Assembly: GCA_902795385.1 (NCBI GenBank)
Contig: CADBLC010000007.1
Location: 1-32,762 of the forward strand
Direction of reading: 5' to 3'
Source of the DNA: Fibrobacter succinogenes
GTDB taxonomy: Bacteria > Fibrobacterota > Fibrobacteria > Fibrobacterales > Fibrobacteraceae
Length of the DNA stretch: 32,762 bases
Each line of letters begins with the position of its first letter. Within the stretch, counting starts at the first letter, position 1. Of this stretch, positions 1,710 through 32,762 are shown in pieces. The position numbers were made by a program, and so were the translations under genes. The notes under the pieces were generated by a model. That model was not told the origin of the DNA and did not search any database. It saw only the letters and a list, made by a program, of their open reading frames with translations.

Positions 1710-4700
1710 TGCCAACTCCCTGCAACTTCCAGCATACGAACGAAACCCATATTGTCAAGCAAGAACAGACCCGCATTGTTGTTGACGTTCATATATATGG
1801 AGAAAGAACATTTTCCGATTCCATAGCGCAGTGCTGCTACAGCTTCGTTCGGTAGAAGGAACTGTACGTTATTGAATTCCTCCCGGAACATATGCGTGAG
1901 TTCTGCATTTCCAAGATACATCAAACCGAAACCTTCATCCGGGCAATCCAATCCTAATCCCACATTTCCGATCCAATAGTCATTTGGCTGCGGATTTGGC
2001 ACATAGATATCCAACGAGATTGTATTGGAGATATATTCCAGTTCTGACGGCATAAAAGGACGGCTTTTGATTTCAATATACCCTGAAGCCATGATTCCCG
2101 CTGCACCAAGTCCCTCTGTCTTGGGAACTTCTACAAAAAGAACATTTGGTCCCGTTGATGCCCAATCATTTACATTGTCAAACGACATAAAATCTGCTGA
2201 GTAGACGTCTAAAATTGTGCTTGCGACTATATGCTCTGTTGTACGGATTATGACATTTCCACCGAATCGCAAGTTGTCTATGCGGTAATCTTCTGAATTC
2301 TGATTTACGTTCATAATAATGGAGAACTTTGCGTTGGGATAATCCCCAGCAAGGGCACTATAAATATCCCAGTTCAAGGGGAATGATAAGGTGTTCCATC
2401 CTGGAGTCAATCCTGTCAGTGAATTTTGACCTATCCAAGCGTTGTAAAGGCCTGCGGCAGGAATGTTTACGCTCATCTGGACTTCTCCATACCAGAAAGG
2501 ATTTGCTTGGTCTTCAGGAATCCAGACATCTAACAAAAGTTCATTCGAAATGGCCCCCAATTCGTATGTATTGAAAATCGGAGATTCAATGGTCATGTAG
2601 CCGTTTCCGTGAACTTTTAAAGAATAACCCTCGTCTCCAAATTTCACATAATTATCGTAAGAGAGGGTTGCAATTGCACTTGTCCAGGGATGATTTGTGT
2701 CGTCGAATGACATGAAGAAAGGTAAACTTTTGATGTCAATTGTTGTTGTCTCGGGTGCTGAAACTTCTTTGCGAATGACTTTGACTGCAATTCCTTTGCC
2801 GGAAACTCCAGTAGGGATTTGAATGGTAATCTCGTCATCGGATAAAGACTCTACAATTGCAACCGCATCCCCTATTTTTACAACAATATCTTTGACTTCG
2901 GTGCCGAAATTTTTGCCGGTTATTTTTATAGATTGACCTGTGTATGCCACATCTGGCGATACAGAAAGAATGTGAGGAACTACCGATTCTACAATCTCTA
3001 TAATTTCGTCAAAAGTAATATCCCATCCGTTTGATGAGACTCTGAAAGGATACATGCCTTTTTCTATGTTGCGGGGGATTCTGACATATGCTCCGCTATT
3101 GGATAAACCGAGGAAATCGAGTAAGATGTTCCCTAGATAAAATTTAGATGTAACGTCAATATTCCGCATGGAGACTTCGAATGCGTCTCCAGGTTTTGCT
3201 GAGACAACCGCAATTCCGTCTAGGATAGGTTTCTCACCAAGGACTTCGATGGTCACGTTTTGGATGATTCCATCCACAATGATGGGGCCCTGTTCATATT
3301 TGGCGAGAGGAGTGCTTTCGGGAATCTTGAAGAGGGCGTAATCCCTTGTCACAAGCGCCGGTTCAATCGGGATGGTCAAAGTCATTGTGATGTTTTGGGC
3401 CATATCCAAATTTAGACCGTACACCATCACGTAATTCCCGGGGTGGGTTGTATAGTTGAACGGATTCATTGCTGGAGTCTGTATGTCGGGACATGACTGA
3501 TTGTCGGATTCCCATGTCCAGCCATCTTCGCTGTTCAAACCGCGGTTAAATATATGAAAAAATGGTTTGTTATATAGCCCATCTTCCTTTCCATCAGCAT
3601 CCTTGCTGTAAACAACTTCGTTCAAGCCATCATAGTTCACTGGTGTTACGCTTATCCATTCTGGTGACCATCCAGGATGTGAATTCGATTGGTCGTTATG
3701 CAATTTTACCTTTTTTATTCCCTTTAAATTTTTTGTTCCCGTAAGGAAAAACCAATCCTCTATCCCCCGTTCAAAGTTGTCCATATCATCGTCTAGTTTG
3801 AATGTCTGAATTTCACCAGAGCATCCTTCAAGAGTCAAACGAATATTGGCGTTTGTGCCGGCTTGGTTTCCGTCAATTGTCTTGATGCCTATCTTATAGC
3901 CAAAATTATCCATTACATAACGAGAAACTACAACTTTTGATGAAATGGGACTAATACTTGTTTGTTCAGTGTAGTCCATTCCTTTTTCGTTGTCGATGGG
4001 AATGTCCATGGCCAGCCATTGATTGAACATGAATACTTGGCCGTCTATTAGGGTAGAATGATTAATATTTTCAGGGAACGAAGCGTGTGTGTAAGCTACG
4101 TTTTTTACATACCATCCAGGGTTGCTTTGGCCGGTCCATAAATTGGAAAGTGTCATTTTTTTGACGTTTGCAAGTTTTTCTTTAGTCACGATGGTGAAGG
4201 TTGAAGTTGTTCCCACCTCAAAATCATCATGGTTACCTTTGTCAAGTAAAAAAGAAAGACATTTGTCATTTATATCACAGATGTTTGCTTGAATGTCATC
4301 GTTTGTTCCTGCGCGGTGAAAGTGTTCTTCGTCGCCGGTTTCGACATAGAATGTGTAAATCTGCATATTGTCTTTTTCATTGAAAGTATATGTTGTTGGC
4401 GATGTGCCGCCAATCCAGCGGTGAATGGGGAACCAATAATGAAAATTTCGGTTATTCGGAAGTTGCATGTCTACGGATACGGAGTCGATGTACCAGCCTG
4501 GTCGATTGCCGGAATTGTCGCTACTCAATGTTAAGGACAAATTTTGTGCTAGGGCAAATGGGGCCTCCTCAACAAAATGAGAAATTTGTCCGTTTCTCAA
4601 TTGTTTTGTAGGAAGGCATCTGGGACCGCCTGAAATCTCATCACCGCATAGAGATAATGATATTTTTGATTCTGTTTCAGCGTTATCTACATCTTTAGCC

Positions 4701-5559: not shown

Positions 5560-5773
5560 CCTCCGCGGATTGAAGCTAGAATTGCATCAGTAGGTTCAGC
5601 CCGCTGCCGCCATTGAAAAAATCAAGCGACGGAAGGAGGGACATTTTTATGGAACCGGACGTTCCACGCCTTTGGTTGTAACTGTCCAAAGATCGCTGGT
5701 ACTCGTCACGTTTGTTTGCATGACCCTTGCGTTCGCTGTACTTGTAGATATTATACGAAAGAACGGGGATGCC
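5560..5773 (-). repeat. Repeat block, copy 2
   Basis: Near-identical to 234-447 over 214 nt with no gaps. It includes 16 nt (5560-5575) beyond the paralog's stop that match the end of the AlkD-like gene although no AlkD frame exists here. Confidence 0.85.
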
Positions 5774-6100
5774 TATCAACAGAAGCGGAATTGATCCTAC
5801 GATTAAAAGTCCACCGCCGATACGGTCGCCGACATCATCCCAGGTTTCTGGATGATAGTTGTCTAAAAGAACATTTATGCCCAACCCTAGGAAAATGCCC
5901 CCTGTTACAGTGAATATGCCACCCCATACGATTCCAGCCACGTTGTGTCCGCCGGAAGCGACAATATCTTCCTGTTTAATCAATTCCTCGTATATTTGGC
6001 TGCTATCTGCAACTGATTCCTTGTACAAAAGGGAATCTTCCTGTGCAAATACAGTACAGGCCGCGACAAGGACGAAAATTAATGTATGTAGGGCTCGCAC
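5576..6100 (-). CDS. Small exported/membrane protein, paralog 2 of 3
   Basis: A 174-aa paralog of 250-768 with unknown function. The GTG at 6098-6100 is the chosen start: it opens a signal-like sequence (MRALHTLIFVLVAACTVFAQ) and a TATATT lies exactly 6 nt upstream (6107-6112 on the other strand), as for several genes in this window. VAAC could be a lipobox, or cleavage could follow VFA. Two hydrophobic glycine-rich stretches follow, then SERKGHANKRDEYQRSLDSY and the conserved tail. The C-terminal ~65 codons are nearly identical to paralog 1 in DNA, while the signal peptide and 5' flank match paralog 3, so the gene is a mosaic of the two. It lies about 100 nt upstream of the PLAT operon on the same strand but has its own apparent promoter. 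Confidence 0.65.
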   Translation of the reverse strand: MRALHTLIFVLVAACTVFAQEDSLLYKESVADSSQIYEELIKQEDIVASGGHNVAGIVWGGIFTVTGGIFLGLGINVLLDNYHPETWDDVGDRIGGGLLIVGSIPLLLIGIPVLSYNIYKYSERKGHANKRDEYQRSLDSYNQRRGTSGSIKMSLLPSLDFFNGGSGLNLLMQF

Positions 6101-6133: not shown

Positions 6134-6293
6134 ATCCTCCGCGGATTGAAACTAGAATTGCATCAGTAGATTCAGTCCGCCGCCGCCATTGAAAAAATCA
6201 AGCGACGGAAGGAGGGACATTTTTATGGAACCGGACGTTCCACGTCTTTGGTTGTAACTGTCCAAAGATCGCTGGTACTCGTCACGCTTGTTT
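6134..6293 (-). repeat. Repeat block, copy 3
   Basis: Matches 232-391 over 160 nt with only a handful of mismatches and no gaps. It includes 18 nt (6134-6151) past the paralog's stop that match the AlkD-like gene end. It abuts, within 3 nt, the 5' flank of copy 2 (6101-6131), which is itself identical to the 5' flank of copy 3 (6674-6704). That shows a head-to-tail duplication unit of about 570 bp. Confidence 0.85.
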
Positions 6294-6673
6294 TGGTGCT
6301 CGAGACGAACGCCGTACATAGAGATGTTGTATAAAAAAACAGGAATTCCAATCAAACACATGGGAATAGACACTATTAGGAGCGAAACGCCGAAATAGCT
6401 GGATGTAATTGCGTCTATGGCATCGTCATTGGCAGAACGTATAAGATATATTCCGCCAATTAGTAACAGCGTTCCTCCTCCTACCATTAGCCCTCCAGCG
6501 AAAGACCCGGAAGCGTTGCCGGATAATCCTTCTGCATTAAGGCGTTCCTGTTCAATCAGTTTCATGTATATCTGTGTGCTGTCTACAACGGGAACTTGTG
6601 GGGCGTTCTCGTTCTGTGCAAACACAGCACAGGCCGCGATAAGGACGAAAATTAATGTATGTAGGGCTCGCAC
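6152..6673 (-). CDS. Small exported/membrane protein, paralog 3 of 3
   Basis: A 173-aa paralog of the two genes described at 250-768 and 5576-6100. The GTG start at 6671-6673 gives the same signal sequence as paralog 2 (MRALHTLIFVLIAACAVFAQ) and has the same TATATT 6 nt upstream (6680-6685 on the other strand). The middle has two hydrophobic segments that differ clearly from the other copies. The region just before the shared tail (SMYGVRLEHQNKRDEYQ) is also diverged, and identity resumes at NKRDEYQ. The gene is divergent from the GH30 gene, with a 72-nt shared promoter region. Function unknown. Confidence 0.65.
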   Translation of the reverse strand: MRALHTLIFVLIAACAVFAQNENAPQVPVVDSTQIYMKLIEQERLNAEGLSGNASGSFAGGLMVGGGTLLLIGGIYLIRSANDDAIDAITSSYFGVSLLIVSIPMCLIGIPVFLYNISMYGVRLEHQNKRDEYQRSLDSYNQRRGTSGSIKMSLLPSLDFFNGGGGLNLLMQF

Positions 6674-28327: not shown

Positions 28328-28786
28328 ATGAAACGGATATTTTTTATAGCACTCGCCTGTGCAGCCGTGCTGGCATCGGCTGCCGAAGACATCAAGATTG
28401 TCAAGGTGAACGACGCCAACTTCGAGAAAGAGGTTCTGCAGTCCAAGAAGCCGGTCATTCTGGATATCACTTCCACGAGCTGCCCGCCGTGCCTCATCAT
28501 GATCCCGACACTCATCGGCATCGCGAAGAATTACCCCGACATCAAGATTGCGACGGTGGGCATCGACGAGCCGGGCATCGACAAGATCAAGGCGAGCCTG
28601 CCTATCCAGGCGTTCCCAACGTTCTTCATGGTGCGCGACGGCAAGATTGTAAACCAGCTGGTGGGTGCCGTCAAGGAAGAGGACCTTCCAAGAAGCCCGC
28701 AGCCAAGCCGAAGAAAATCAAGAACGCAAAGCGCAATATGGTGTGCAAGACTCCCGGCCAGTTCAACGGGCTCAAGAACCTGGTGA
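28328..28786 (+). CDS. Exported thioredoxin-like protein, apparently frameshifted
   Basis: As read, 152 aa. It has a signal peptide (1-18) and a thioredoxin fold with active site TSCPPCL (CPPC), then FPTFFMVRDGKIVNQLVGA. TATATT lies 7 nt before the ATG. After about 28684 the frame turns into an Arg/Ser-rich run unlike the rest, while the -1 frame continues with a normal Lys-rich linker (SKKPAAKPKKIKNAKRN) and about 105 further residues ending at 29055. A missing base in the CCTTCC region would restore one ~242-aa protein. There is no slippery heptamer, so a real indel or a sequencing error is more likely than programmed shifting. It probably acts in periplasmic thiol-disulfide chemistry. Confidence 0.7.
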   Translation: MKRIFFIALACAAVLASAAEDIKIVKVNDANFEKEVLQSKKPVILDITSTSCPPCLIMIPTLIGIAKNYPDIKIATVGIDEPGIDKIKASLPIQAFPTFFMVRDGKIVNQLVGAVKEEDLPRSPQPSRRKSRTQSAIWCARLPASSTGSRTW

Positions 28787-29055
28787 CTATCTCGTTCGTG
28801 TTCGGCGACTACGAAATCGAGAATGTTGACATTGTGACCGATGTGTTCGTGCCGCCCGAGTTGAACGACCGGCGCGAGCAGATGATGGAACACGTTCGCT
28901 CAAGCGGGAAGGGCGAGGTGGAGCCCACCATGACGGGCTTCCGCATCCATATCGACAACAACTGCCGATTCATGAAGGCGATGGACATGAAGCGCACGTC
29001 CACCTACGGCGAGATGCGCGCGGGCCTCGAACTGCAGGGCTTTAACTGCCAGTAG
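28738..29055 (+). CDS. Detached C-terminal part of the thioredoxin-like protein
   Basis: The frame open to 29055 encodes, from the ATG at 28738, 105 aa: MVCKTPGQFNGLKNL, FVFGDYEIENVDIVTDVFVP, a polar middle and CRFMKAMDMKRTS. There is no Shine-Dalgarno, and no TATATT-like hexamer at leaderless spacing stands before the ATG. It is best read as the C-terminal domain of the gene starting at 28328, split off by the frameshift near 28684. The domain was not recognised. If the shift is an assembly error the true gene is 28328-29055. Confidence 0.5.
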   Translation: MVCKTPGQFNGLKNLVTISFVFGDYEIENVDIVTDVFVPPELNDRREQMMEHVRSSGKGEVEPTMTGFRIHIDNNCRFMKAMDMKRTSTYGEMRAGLELQGFNCQ

Positions 29056-29118: not shown

Positions 29119-30099
29119 ATGGATACTACATCGGGTACATACCGCCGTATTTTTGTGCTGGGCTCCGGCTTCAGCAAGTCTTTCTGCCCGCAGATGCCCA
29201 CGCTTCGCGACCTGAACGAGCGCATTCCCTTCGGCATTCCGGACGAGTTCCCGCACCTGCGCGAATACTGCACGCGCTTTTTGGAACTGTGCAATAGCCA
29301 GCCGGATTACCTGGACATCGAGCGGCTTTCGACGTCGATTCTTTCGGCGCAGATTTTCCCGGGGGTGCGAGAAAGCCTGTACCATTCCAGTTTGCGGTTT
29401 GAACTTTTGCGGTTTATCGCAAGCGAGATTCGGCACGACAAGGGCATGGATGCGGACTGCGCGGCGGTGCTCCGCAAGTTCCTTTCGGGTTGCGAGAACT
29501 GCCCGGGCGAGGGTGTGCGCGATACGCTACTGCTATCGTTCAACTACGATACGCTTGTCGAGGATGTGATTACTGCCGACCCGGAGATGAGCTCGCGCGT
29601 GGCGGTGGATTACGGCGTTCGCATTGACCCTGCGGACCGGAGTGCGGTTCGTGCCCCGCGGACGCTCTCGGTCGACCTGATCAAGCTCCACGGTTCGCTC
29701 AACTGGTACCCGGTCAAGGGTGCCTCGGACCCGCTTGACCTCAAGAACGTGTGCCAGGTGGAACCCTGCGACCGGAGTTTCCCCATCTACCGCGAAGATA
29801 CGCCCATCTACATCCCGATGGCACATGCGAAGGAATCCTTTTTGCGCGGGAGCCTTTTCAACCTGCTCTGGAGCAAGGCGGATTATTACCTCAAGAATGC
29901 GCAGGAGATATACTTCCTGGGTTACGGTTTCCCGAAGACGGACATGAACAACCTGGAATTCTTGCTCCGGCATCGCGAACGCTTCAAGAAGGTGGTGGTT
30001 TTCGAGCCGGAAAATTCCCCTGTGCTGGAGCGGTTACGCAGGCTGCTCGGCAACCTGGTCGAAAGTCGCGACGCGAAGGAATACCTGGCGAATTTCTAG
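29119..30099 (+). CDS. SIR2-like domain protein
   Basis: A 326-aa cytoplasmic protein with the Rossmann-type marks of the SIR2-like family: FVLGSGFSKSF (12-22), LSFNYDTLVE with Asn142/Asp144, LIKLHGSLNW with His191, and YFLGYGFPKTD near 265-275. It lacks the zinc-binding Cys pairs of true sirtuin deacetylases. Members with these residues are NADases in phage defence (ThsA, DSR and others), usually with extra effector domains; this one is a stand-alone SIR2-like domain of the kind often annotated only as 'SIR2 family protein'. TATACA lies 8 nt before the ATG. The G of its stop codon is also the first base of the promoter-like motif for the next gene. Confidence 0.75.
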   Translation: MDTTSGTYRRIFVLGSGFSKSFCPQMPTLRDLNERIPFGIPDEFPHLREYCTRFLELCNSQPDYLDIERLSTSILSAQIFPGVRESLYHSSLRFELLRFIASEIRHDKGMDADCAAVLRKFLSGCENCPGEGVRDTLLLSFNYDTLVEDVITADPEMSSRVAVDYGVRIDPADRSAVRAPRTLSVDLIKLHGSLNWYPVKGASDPLDLKNVCQVEPCDRSFPIYREDTPIYIPMAHAKESFLRGSLFNLLWSKADYYLKNAQEIYFLGYGFPKTDMNNLEFLLRHRERFKKVVVFEPENSPVLERLRRLLGNLVESRDAKEYLANF

Positions 30100-30129
30100 T
30101 GACACTTTTGCCTCCCTGGGGTGTTATAC
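30099..30129 (+). promoter_or_regulatory. ECF-type promoter-like motif, copy 1 (flavodoxin gene)
   Basis: GTGACACTTTTG at 30099-30110 and GGTGTTATAC at 30120-30129 repeat the parts of copy 2 (30766-30796) at identical spacing, whereas the bases between differ. TGACAC and GTTATA would be -35 and -10 with a 17-nt spacer. A 5' leader with GGGAGG 6 nt before the ATG at 30151 follows. Confidence 0.6.
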
Positions 30130-30150: not shown

Positions 30151-30750
30151 ATGAAAATCCTTATTTTGAACGCCAGTCCGCGCAAAAACGGTACGATTTC
30201 GCAGGCCGTGGAACGCTTTGCCGAGGGTGCGAGCAATTCGTTCATGGGCGATTTTTCCGAAGACGTCCGAGTGGAGGTGGTGAACGTGAACGACCTGAAG
30301 TTCGCTCCCTGCAGGGGCTGCATGCAATGCCGTAAATGCGGCACGTGCTGCCTGCCGCAAGACGACGCGCACCGTGTGGCCGAAAAAATCGAGGCCTGCG
30401 ACGTGCTAGTGGTGGCCGCTCCCGTGTACTGGGGCAACATGCCCGGCACGCTCAAGATGCTTTTCGACCGCATGGTCTATGCGATGATGGGCGAATCCGA
30501 GATGGGCATCCCCAAGCCGCTCCACAAGGGCAAGGACGCCTACATAATTACAAGCTGCACGACTCCCTTCCCGTTCAACATTTTCTGCAGGCAGACTTCC
30601 GGCCTGGTGGCCGCCCTCAAGGAGATTTTGGGCACATCGGGGTTCAAAATCCGCGGAAAAGTGGTAATTCCGGGCACAAAGGCCAAAAAGGGGCTCCCTG
30701 TGCATGCCGGAAAATGCGCCTACCGGCTGGGCTTCTCGCTCGCCTGGTAA
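30151..30750 (+). CDS. Flavodoxin-fold NAD(P)H:FMN oxidoreductase family protein with Cys cluster
   Basis: A 199-aa cytoplasmic protein. The FMN-phosphate loop is LNASPRKNGTIS (6-17), followed by a cysteine cluster CRGCMQCRKCGTCC (about 54-67) just before LPQDDA, and APVYWGNMPGTLKMLFDRM, the second flavin loop. The C-X2-C-X2-C arrangement recalls iron-sulfur flavoproteins, but many flavodoxin-like reductases have fewer Cys; a 4Fe-4S cluster is possible. GGGAGG stands 6 nt before the ATG. Its promoter-like element is shared with the downstream ECF sigma gene, so it may belong to that sigma factor's regulon, perhaps for redox or electrophile stress. Confidence 0.82.
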   Translation: MKILILNASPRKNGTISQAVERFAEGASNSFMGDFSEDVRVEVVNVNDLKFAPCRGCMQCRKCGTCCLPQDDAHRVAEKIEACDVLVVAAPVYWGNMPGTLKMLFDRMVYAMMGESEMGIPKPLHKGKDAYIITSCTTPFPFNIFCRQTSGLVAALKEILGTSGFKIRGKVVIPGTKAKKGLPVHAGKCAYRLGFSLAW

Positions 30751-30765
30751 TTTTCTAAATTTGCG

Positions 30766-30796
30766 GTGACACTTTTGACCTCCCTAGGTGTTACAC
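30766..30796 (+). promoter_or_regulatory. ECF-type promoter-like motif, copy 2 (sigma gene)
   Basis: GTGACACTTTTG at 30766-30777 and GGTGTTACAC at 30787-30796; same total length as copy 1. It ends 4 nt before the sigma ATG, so the sigma mRNA would be nearly leaderless. GTGACAC and GTGTTAC also form an imperfect inverted repeat, so an operator is the alternative reading. Confidence 0.6.
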
Positions 30797-30800
30797 AGGC

Positions 30801-31304
30801 ATGGAAAGGATGAATCCCGCAGATAACATGACGTTTTCGAAACTGTACGAGGTGTATGCCCCGATGGTTTACCGCCGCGCCATGGCCTTGCTGAAGGATG
30901 AATCCGAGGCCGAAGACATGGTGCAGAACGTGTTTTTGCGCGTGTACGAACGCTGGGACAGCCTGGATGTATCGCAGCCGAGCAGCCTCTTGTGGAATAC
31001 GGCTACAAGGCTCTGCCTCAACCGCATTCGCGACAAAAAACGCCGCGGGCTCGATATGGACACGAGCGAACTCCTGCTCTCTATTGCCTGTGCAGACGAC
31101 GAACAGGAATCTTTCGCGGCCCGGAACATCCTTTCGAAGATTTTTTCGAAGGAACAGGAATCGACAAGGACTATTGCGGTGTTACACTATGTGGACGGCA
31201 TGACGCTCGAGGAAACTGCCCGCGAGGTGGGGCTCTCGGTGAGCGGCGTGCGCAAGCGCTTGCGCGGTTTGCAAGCCAAGGTAAAGAATCTGGAGGTAAA
31301 GTGA
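30801..31304 (+). CDS. RNA polymerase sigma factor, ECF subfamily
   Basis: A 167-aa protein from the ATG at 30801 (Met4 is an alternative). Region 2 at about 12-75: FSKLYEVYAPMVYRRAMALL, then SEAEDMVQNVFLRVYERW, typical of ECF sigma region 2.2-2.4. Region 4 at about 110-160: AVLHYVDGMTLEETAREVGL, then SVSGVRKRLRGL, the -35-reading helix-turn-helix. There is no region 1 or 3. The next gene starts with a TGATG overlap of its stop codon, indicating tight co-translation with a membrane protein placed like an anti-sigma factor. The motif at 30766-30796 suggests it drives its own transcription. Confidence 0.9.
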   Translation: MERMNPADNMTFSKLYEVYAPMVYRRAMALLKDESEAEDMVQNVFLRVYERWDSLDVSQPSSLLWNTATRLCLNRIRDKKRRGLDMDTSELLLSIACADDEQESFAARNILSKIFSKEQESTRTIAVLHYVDGMTLEETAREVGLSVSGVRKRLRGLQAKVKNLEVK

Positions 31305-32113
31305 TGATCCCCGATTGGAAACTGGAACGCTACTTGACGGGCGACTTGCCCGCTGCCGAGATGCGCGAGATTCGCGAACTCGAAAAGACGGACGCGATTT
31401 TCGCGAACCGCGTGAAGATGATGCGCGAGGACAACGCGGCGATTCTCCGCAAGATGCCTTTCGAGAGGCTCTCCGAGAAGATGGACGCGATGCCGGCGCG
31501 TCGCGGTGCTGGCGCAGGTTTTAACGGCGCTGGCAACATCGTGAATTTCAAGCTCGTGAAGTTCGCGGCCGCCGCGGCACTTGTGCTTGCCGTGGTGTCG
31601 GTGGCGCTCTTTAGCCAGCGCGAAGTTATGGCCCCGGCTACGGATGGCGCACAGGTGATGGATGTGGCCATGGTAGACGCTTCGGAAATTCCGGGCGATG
31701 CCGGCGATACGCGCATCAAGGGCATGGACGCCCGCATGGAAGTGTGGAAAAAGACGGCCGACAGTGCCGTGCAGATGTCGAACCTGGACGAAGCCCGCGA
31801 AGGCGACGAAATCCAGCTCCGCTATTCCGTTCCCGAAAAAAGTTTTGGCCTATTGTTCAGCATGGACGGGAATGGCGCCCTCACGATGCACATGGGCAGT
31901 GAAAACCACGCTGTTGAGCTTGCTCCCGGCGAGATGACGACCTTGCCGTTCGCCTACAAGCTCGATAACGCGCCCAAGTTCGAAAAGTTCTTCTTGTTGA
32001 CCTCGCGGAACATGTTCTCCATCAATGCGTCCGATATAGACGCTTCGCTCAAGCAGGAGGGCGTCCGTGTGGTAAGTTTTACGCTGCGTAAAGTGGGGGG
32101 AGTGTCGAAATGA
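31304..32113 (+). CDS. Single-pass membrane protein, putative anti-sigma factor
   Basis: A 269-aa protein starting at the ATG in the TGATG overlap with the sigma gene. N-terminal cytoplasmic part (1-82): DWKLERYLTGDLPAAEMREI, a short helical segment like those that bind ECF sigma factors, but without the zinc-binding HxxxCxxC. One membrane helix (about 84-104, LVKFAAAAALVLAVVSVALF). A periplasmic domain (about 150-265) contains GDEIQLRYSVPEKSFGLLFS, MDGNGALTMHM and LPFAYKLDN, a pattern like DUF4384-type domains that accompany caspase-like proteins. Its stop forms an ATGA overlap with the caspase gene. Role as sigma inhibitor and caspase partner or substrate is inferred from order and topology. 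Confidence 0.7.
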   Translation: MIPDWKLERYLTGDLPAAEMREIRELEKTDAIFANRVKMMREDNAAILRKMPFERLSEKMDAMPARRGAGAGFNGAGNIVNFKLVKFAAAAALVLAVVSVALFSQREVMAPATDGAQVMDVAMVDASEIPGDAGDTRIKGMDARMEVWKKTADSAVQMSNLDEAREGDEIQLRYSVPEKSFGLLFSMDGNGALTMHMGSENHAVELAPGEMTTLPFAYKLDNAPKFEKFFLLTSRNMFSINASDIDASLKQEGVRVVSFTLRKVGGVSK

Positions 32114-32762
32114 GGAATATTATCGAAAAATTGGATACGTCCATAGTGCTTCAGGTTTTTTCCTTGGTGATTTTGCTGGTACTCGCGGCAACGACGGGTG
32201 CGCAGGCCGCGACAGGCTCGGCAGAAACCCAGATTAACCGCTATGTGCTCGCGGTGAGCGCGAATAACGGCGGTAAGGGCCGTCCTATGCTCCGCTATGC
32301 CGAAAGCGACGCGAAGTCGTTTGTGAACGTGCTCAAGGAAATGGGCGGCGTGCAACCGCAGAATATAGTGTTTGTGAAGGGCCCGAGTGTAGAAAAGCTC
32401 CGCCACGAGATGGACGCCCTCGACAAGAAGATTGCCCAGGGCAAGTCTACTGGCGGCCGCAACGAGGTGCTGGTGTACTACAGCGGCCACGCCGACGACA
32501 AGGGCCTTCGCCTTGGCGAAGAAGTGTACAACTGGAAGGAATTCCGCAAGCGTATCGACGCCCTCAAGGGCGACGTGAAGATTGCGGTGATCGACGCCTG
32601 CGGTTCGGGAGCGATTACGCGCCTCAAGGGCGGTGTGGCCGTGCCCGCGTTCATGGTGGACAAGAGCAGCGACATGAAGGGCTATGCCTTTATCACGAGC
32701 AGCACGCAAGATGAATCTAGCCAGGAGAGCGACAAGCTGAAGGGTTCCTTCTTTACGCATTC
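32110..32762 (+). CDS. Exported caspase-like (C14) peptidase, cut by window end
   Basis: At least 217 aa; the gene runs off the window. N-terminal hydrophobic export signal (about 11-33, VFSLVILLVLAATTGAQA), so the domain faces the periplasm. The p20-type caspase fold follows: RYVLAVSANNGG, the catalytic His127 in YYSGHAD and catalytic Cys164 in IDACGSGAI, then ITSSTQDESSQES and a FFTH end, as in bacterial orthocaspases. An acidic S1 pocket, giving Arg/Lys specificity as in metacaspases, cannot be judged without a structure. Four-base ATGA overlap with the membrane protein gene indicates coupled translation. Possible role: cleaving the partner or itself in envelope stress signalling (inference). 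Confidence 0.85.
   Translation, partial: MRNIIEKLDTSIVLQVFSLVILLVLAATTGAQAATGSAETQINRYVLAVSANNGGKGRPMLRYAESDAKSFVNVLKEMGGVQPQNIVFVKGPSVEKLRHEMDALDKKIAQGKSTGGRNEVLVYYSGHADDKGLRLGEEVYNWKEFRKRIDALKGDVKIAVIDACGSGAITRLKGGVAVPAFMVDKSSDMKGYAFITSSTQDESSQESDKLKGSFFTH

Follow-up and report, generated by a model that had tools for sequence, protein, structure and literature searches.

A three-gene operon for an ECF sigma factor, a single-pass membrane protein that looks like its anti-sigma factor, and an exported caspase closes the window (the whole stretch of DNA that was analyzed, 32,762 bases, which is the entire contig C7 of assembly G000, itself 74.7% complete). The association of the three genes is far beyond chance. 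We lean toward the reading that they form a self-regulating envelope-to-nucleoid unit, in which a caspase tethered to the outer membrane would cut the anti-sigma factor at an RxKG sequence and RseP would then free sigma.

The first gene (30801 to 31304; features of the window lie on the plus strand unless stated otherwise) encodes a protein of 167 amino acids with matches to the Pfam domains Sigma70_r2 (1.7e-14) and Sigma70_r4_2 (1.1e-6) and to TIGR02937 (1.4e-23); the small size and the presence of regions 2 and 4 only are those of an ECF sigma factor. It is followed by the gene of the membrane protein (269 amino acids, ATG at 31304, end at 32113, with an alternative GTG start possible at 31301), delimited from the open reading frame, an AF2 model, and the alignment of homologues, and by the caspase gene, which runs from the ATG at 32110 to 32762 and is cut at its 3' end because the window is a complete contig. 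The translational overlaps named in the original prediction (TGATG at 31302 to 31306 and ATGA at 32110 to 32113) are both present, and the gene order that it proposed, sigma, single-pass membrane protein, exported caspase, was borne out by the open reading frames, the domains, and the AF2 model. It had also called for the caspase gene to be completed past 32762. The missing 3' part was not found in the 74.7%-complete assembly itself, but a near-identical genome, G025 (98% identity for the membrane protein and 99% for the caspase), carries the gene whole, at 767 amino acids, and there it is followed by genes for a TonB-plug protein, a lipoprotein, and a coiled-coil protein. The only other caspase match in the genome of the window is a large protein on contig C163, with no sigma or anti-sigma neighbors in the part seen.

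Within the genus, the caspase was present in 36 of the 37 genomes examined, nearly always in a single copy and immediately preceded by the membrane protein gene; it also occurred in most other families of Fibrobacterota. A wider scan, with one genome per species, used a caspase profile built from a 6-sequence subset, as the alignment of 13 sequences was too diverse for a contig scan, and the closest 80 caspases were retained. Their loci came from Fibrobacterota, Myxococcota/Deltaproteobacteria, Spirochaetes, Acidobacteria, Gammaproteobacteria, Eisenbacteria, and Aminicenantes. A locus was counted as testable when at least 1.8 kb of upstream sequence was available, and the sigma and anti-sigma profiles were built from Fibrobacterota only. 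In 64 of the 67 testable loci, across about seven phyla, the sigma and anti-sigma genes stood immediately upstream of the caspase gene in this order, a figure that applies to this caspase subfamily and not to all bacterial caspases, since the scan kept the closest 80. The trio thus stays together in Fibrobacterota and beyond, a point on which the original prediction had depended. Variant arrangements were also seen: a tandem pair of caspase genes behind a single sigma/anti-sigma pair (L133, 3556 to 6950), and a sigma gene, or a sigma/anti-sigma pair, divergent from the caspase gene (L165, 3287 to 5151; L172, 1 to 803), with an additional anti-sigma fragment at the usual position in L172.

The membrane protein was modeled by AF2 as a cytoplasmic four-helix domain (residues 4 to 62, positions 31313 to 31489; helices 4-12, 17-29, 31-50, and 53-62) with a pLDDT above 90 over most of its length, a transmembrane helix (residues 85 to 103, 31556 to 31612), a linker of low confidence, and a periplasmic DUF4384-like beta domain that was again modeled with confidence (residues 144 to 263, 31733 to 32092). 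By itself, the protein has a sole Pfam match, to DUF4384, starting at residue 165 with an E value of 0.12. Its 33 homologues, which align across their length, were more informative: 15 of them match DUF4384 (best, 7.7e-10), 4 carry zf-HC2 in the N-terminal domain (best, 2e-6), and nearly all have a single hydrophobic segment at about residues 70 to 105. Four of the six weak PDB matches were membrane or anti-sigma entries of ECF systems, aligned to the N-terminal part, with E values of 0.08 to 0.7 that are singly nonsignificant; a fold search with the whole model returned generic beta-sandwich proteins only. The N-terminal domain, on which an interaction with sigma hinged in the original prediction, proved to be a confident four-helix domain whose relatives include the zf-HC2 anti-sigma domain. 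An N-terminal four-helix domain with an optional zinc finger is what characterizes membrane anti-sigma factors of the ASD/ZAS type, and the protein thus looks like an ECF anti-sigma factor that should keep sigma inactive.

The caspase begins with a signal sequence recognized by inspection (about residues 1 to 33, 32110 to 32208, ...LLVLAATTGAQA|AT). N-terminal hydrophobic segments are found in most caspase homologues, with a helix at residues 9 to 32 in the AF2 model of the orthologue from Fibrobacter locus L180, and together with the export signal of the window protein they speak against a cytoplasmic enzyme. The periplasmic location originally proposed holds as far as export is concerned, but an enzyme tethered to the outer membrane is more probable than a simply periplasmic one. 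In full-length caspases, the signal sequence and the caspase domain are followed by a small beta domain and then by a long C-terminal portion. The L180 model (756 amino acids, pLDDT 78, pTM 0.47) matched caspase-7 in Foldseek and, separately, the barrels NspA and OprF (TMt 0.54 and 0.69; E about 5e-4 to 1e-3); we assigned the barrel matches to the C-terminal portion, given that the caspase region was already explained. One relative, L095, matches OMP_b-brl_2 at residues 326 to 496 (3e-4), 15 of 36 caspase members match LA_2272 surface repeats or the VC2662 family, and the C-terminal residue is Phe in 43 of 105 caspases versus 10 of 167 control ORFs. Pfam returned no OMP family for 36 diverse caspases, which makes the barrel likely and yet not secure in every lineage. 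On the strength of one AF2 model, a C-terminal OmpA/NspA-like beta-barrel probably holds the caspase in the outer membrane.

The caspase domain matches Peptidase_C14 in Pfam (2.7e-9). His127 (CAC, 32488 to 32490) and Cys164 (TGC in a DAC motif, 32599 to 32601), assigned from the open reading frame and the alignment, are intact as predicted, each kept in 99% of 112 relatives, and they form the His-Cys dyad of the YSGH and DxC motifs that marks family C14 of clan CD. Over the same 112 sequences, the predicted acidic S1 residues were equally well preserved (Asp67, 100%; Asp162, 99%). They align with the "ND" and "DxC" positions of solved metacaspases and, judging by position relative to the dyad, presumably correspond to Asp95 and Asp211 of TbMCA2. 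Those two residues are reported to matter for the acceptance of basic residues in the substrate (PMC6426788; PMC4357240). This conservation leads us to expect an acidic S1 pocket and hence a preference for Arg or Lys at P1, in keeping with the RxKG sequence described below.

A candidate cleavage site, RIKG (residues 137 to 140, 31712 to 31723), lies in the flexible periplasmic linker of the anti-sigma model, upstream of residue 165, where the Pfam DUF4384 model starts. Over 103 sequences, K139 was conserved in 96%, G140 in 97%, and R137 in 78%. The most conserved positions were D188, G140, K139, L220, and P52, so that the K139-G140 pair ranks second and third in the whole protein despite its position in a low-confidence linker. 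Of 107 sequences, 93 have KG within 75 residues past the transmembrane helix, and 75 have RxKG there. RxKG lies anywhere from about 6 to 60 residues past the transmembrane helix, while a short and almost fixed stretch separates it from the beta domain. Such spacing, fixed to the beta domain and variable to the membrane, would suit a site that the beta domain presents, but also a structural cap or a docking motif.

A natural control came from two genomes of one genus, which have an extra sigma/anti-sigma pair (L254, contig C89 of G057, 801 to 1867; L255, contig C25 of G059, 2072 to 3048) with no caspase match on that contig. Their anti-sigma proteins keep the cytoplasmic domain and the transmembrane helix and have a short, acidic tail, without the beta domain and without RxKG. 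Both pairs probably trace to one event and hence count as one independent observation. Conversely, all the DUF4384 matches in 61 genomes fell in anti-sigma genes at caspase-holding loci. In domain-wise mirror-tree partial correlations, the caspase tended to go with the periplasmic half of the anti-sigma protein and sigma with the cytoplasmic half, which is the pairing expected; with bootstrap values of 0.92 and 0.91, this split is weakly suggestive.

Upstream of sigma, we found a predicted autoregulatory ECF promoter, GGTGACA-N15-GGTGTT (30765 to 30792), which is conserved within the genus, across the phylum, and in further phyla. A second copy with one mismatch, AGTGACACTTTTGCCTCCCTGGGGTGTT (30098 to 30125), which pairs with 30758 to 30796 in the comparison, stands 25 nt before a gene for an NADPH-dependent FMN reductase (30151 to 30750; FMN_red, PF03358, 6.7e-22), a probable regulon member whose orthologues in L215, L225, and L251 are also preceded by the motif. 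The window thus has two sites versus 0.06 expected. The GGTRACA-N15-GGTGTT pattern upstream of sigma is conserved and its flanking sequence is not, and 61 genomes contained 106 exact sites versus 10 for the reversed pattern. In the cross-phylum set, which includes a few Fibrobacter, the motif preceded sigma in 16 of 66 loci, versus 0.0 in shuffles, and the phyla concerned were Spirochaetes, Myxococcota, Gammaproteobacteria, Acidobacteria, and Aminicenantes. Another pattern, G[GT]AACM-N-CGT, was not clearly above shuffles (3 versus 1.5). In Fibrobacter the motif repeatedly stands before the operon itself, before genes for a TonB-plug outer-membrane protein and a lipoprotein, and before those for a DUF3450 coiled-coil protein and FMN reductases. 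Taken together, the motif data support autoregulation and a small envelope-related regulon. As separate observations, the DUF3450 coiled-coil secreted protein is among the most regular predicted sigma targets in Fibrobacter (L215, 8899 to 9744; L226, L228, and others), and only 8 nt separate the predicted -10 element from the sigma ATG (window, 30765 to 30803), with a similarly short gap across the genus, so that the mRNA of sigma may have little or no leader.

Two further features of the window were recorded. A thioredoxin-like gene (28328 to 29055) is split by a frameshift into ORFs at 28328 to 28786 and 28489 to 29055; in the neighboring species L066 it is one intact ORF of 250 amino acids, and the frameshift is either an assembly error or a pseudogene. 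On the minus strand, three paralogous membrane proteins (250 to 768, 5576 to 6100, and 6152 to 6673) differ at their N termini and are almost identical over their C-terminal 45 residues (KRDEYQRSLDSYNQRRGTSGSIKMSLLPSLDFFNGG...LLMQF), which suggests gene conversion.

In the mechanism toward which we lean, an envelope signal, for which the barrel is the obvious candidate sensor, would give the caspase access to the periplasmic domain of the anti-sigma factor. The caspase would cut after Lys139 or Arg137 of RxKG, this site-1-like cut would let RseP (found in all 5 genomes tested) cleave within the membrane, and the freed sigma would transcribe its own operon and the genes for the TonB-plug protein, the lipoprotein, the DUF3450 coiled-coil protein, and the FMN reductase. 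That the loci represent a widespread ECF class, in which an outer-membrane-anchored caspase would reach across the periplasm and cut an inner-membrane anti-sigma factor at RxKG as its site-1 protease, is possible, and we put it forward more tentatively. Since the caspase gene itself lies behind the predicted sigma promoter, the caspase may be an output and not an activator. Sigma and anti-sigma would then sense the envelope otherwise, for example through DegS-like or Prc-type site-1 cleavage, sigma would raise the level of an outer-membrane caspase that cuts other envelope proteins, and the partnership would be one of co-regulation; that the remaining predicted regulon members are envelope proteins agrees with this. 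We nevertheless consider it rather unlikely, as the other predicted regulon genes vary among genomes, whereas the caspase adjoins the anti-sigma gene in 64 of 67 loci, and as the periplasmic domain and RxKG are gone where the caspase is absent, a loss that co-regulation alone does not predict.

The constant and short spacing between RxKG and the beta domain could also reflect a contact without proteolysis, with the barrel-caspase serving as a transducer of the FecA kind, or with the DUF4384-like domain holding the caspase in check, and with a structural or docking role for RxKG. Cell-surface signaling offers a precedent, in which an outer-membrane transducer binds the anti-sigma factor and shields it from proteolysis (PMC11637429). 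However, a mere scaffold would hardly keep the dyad and the acidic S1 residues in 99 to 100% of 112 sequences, and RxKG lies in a low-confidence linker, so this explanation appears decidedly improbable. A module for programmed cell death or defense, with sigma controlling a killing caspase, would match the frame in which bacterial caspase homologues are often placed (PMC3501461) and the proposal that EACC2-caspase/ECF neighborhoods are immune systems (PMC8195603). We give it hardly any credence: one copy is present in nearly all genomes of the genus, the caspase is exported and probably in the outer membrane, the regulon is of envelope type, and no mobile or toxin features were seen around the locus.

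The preferred arrangement, with a caspase as the first protease, resembles SigmaE-RseA-DegS-RseP in its ECF sigma factor, its single-pass anti-sigma factor, and a presumed periplasmic cut followed by RseP, but the presumed first protease is an operon-encoded clan CD caspase tied to the outer membrane, unlike DegS, an inner-membrane PDZ serine protease. With FecI-FecR-FecA cell-surface signaling it shares an outer-membrane protein, an inner-membrane anti-sigma factor, and an ECF sigma factor in one unit; FecA, however, is a TonB-dependent transducer, while here the outer-membrane partner would be a protease domain with a small barrel, and the TonB-plug protein is only a predicted regulon gene, in Fibrobacter. 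The ECF54/CHAT, EACC2-caspase/ECF, and Csx29 systems are cytoplasmic. ECF54 with CHAT proteases, the EACC2-caspase/ECF loci, and Csx29-Csx30-RpoE likewise have a caspase-fold protease near an ECF sigma factor (PMC8999054; PMC8195603; PMC10028731), but none has an exported caspase beside a membrane anti-sigma factor; ECF54 has been described as being without an anti-sigma factor (PMC8999054), and Csx29, unlike the caspase of the window, is part of a CRISPR effector. In type III CRISPR CalpL-CalpT-CalpS, named in the original prediction as a distant parallel, a protease cuts an anti-sigma-like partner and releases sigma (PMC12751052; PMC11417357), as is proposed here; CalpL, however, is a SAVED protease of the Lon type that cA4 activates, with no homology to the caspase, and that system has no membrane counterpart and the present one no CRISPR. 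Pfam gave no match to a SAVED or Lon domain in the exported caspase, which places it outside that set. A CRISPR-like reading was ranked low, its supporting context being missing.

The operon almost certainly belongs to the family of sigma/metacaspase operons described in the operon text of Asplund-Samuelsson et al. in 2012 (PMC3501461), which lists sigma-70/metacaspase operons in Myxococcus xanthus (four of its five metacaspases), Anaeromyxobacter, Haliangium, Sorangium, Ralstonia, and Fibrobacter. That operon text gives no mechanism, anti-sigma partner, cut site, barrel, promoter, or regulon. The original idea of a caspase acting on the membrane partner of sigma is partly supported: the cleavage is a proposal from sequence, the caspase probably sits at the outer membrane, and the bare association of sigma with a metacaspase, Fibrobacter included, was already published there. 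The RxKG candidate site and the autoregulatory promoter, neither of which the original prediction contained, strengthen it. In the open-license literature, an incomplete sample, we came across no account of a membrane anti-sigma factor being acted on by a caspase.

To our knowledge, no physiological substrate is known for most caspase homologues of bacteria, which are usually framed in terms of death or immunity. The present family offers a specific candidate substrate, a specific candidate bond (on the C-terminal side of K139 or R137), and a readout in transcription, and its lineages include the genetically tractable Myxococcus xanthus. If the proposal is true, it would give caspases a housekeeping role in signaling, extend the known site-1 proteases by a new kind, and account for the sigma-metacaspase operons that have stood without a mechanism since 2012. 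With a co-inherited caspase probably in the outer membrane and an almost invariant candidate site in the anti-sigma factor, bacteria may relay envelope signals to their genes by means of a caspase.
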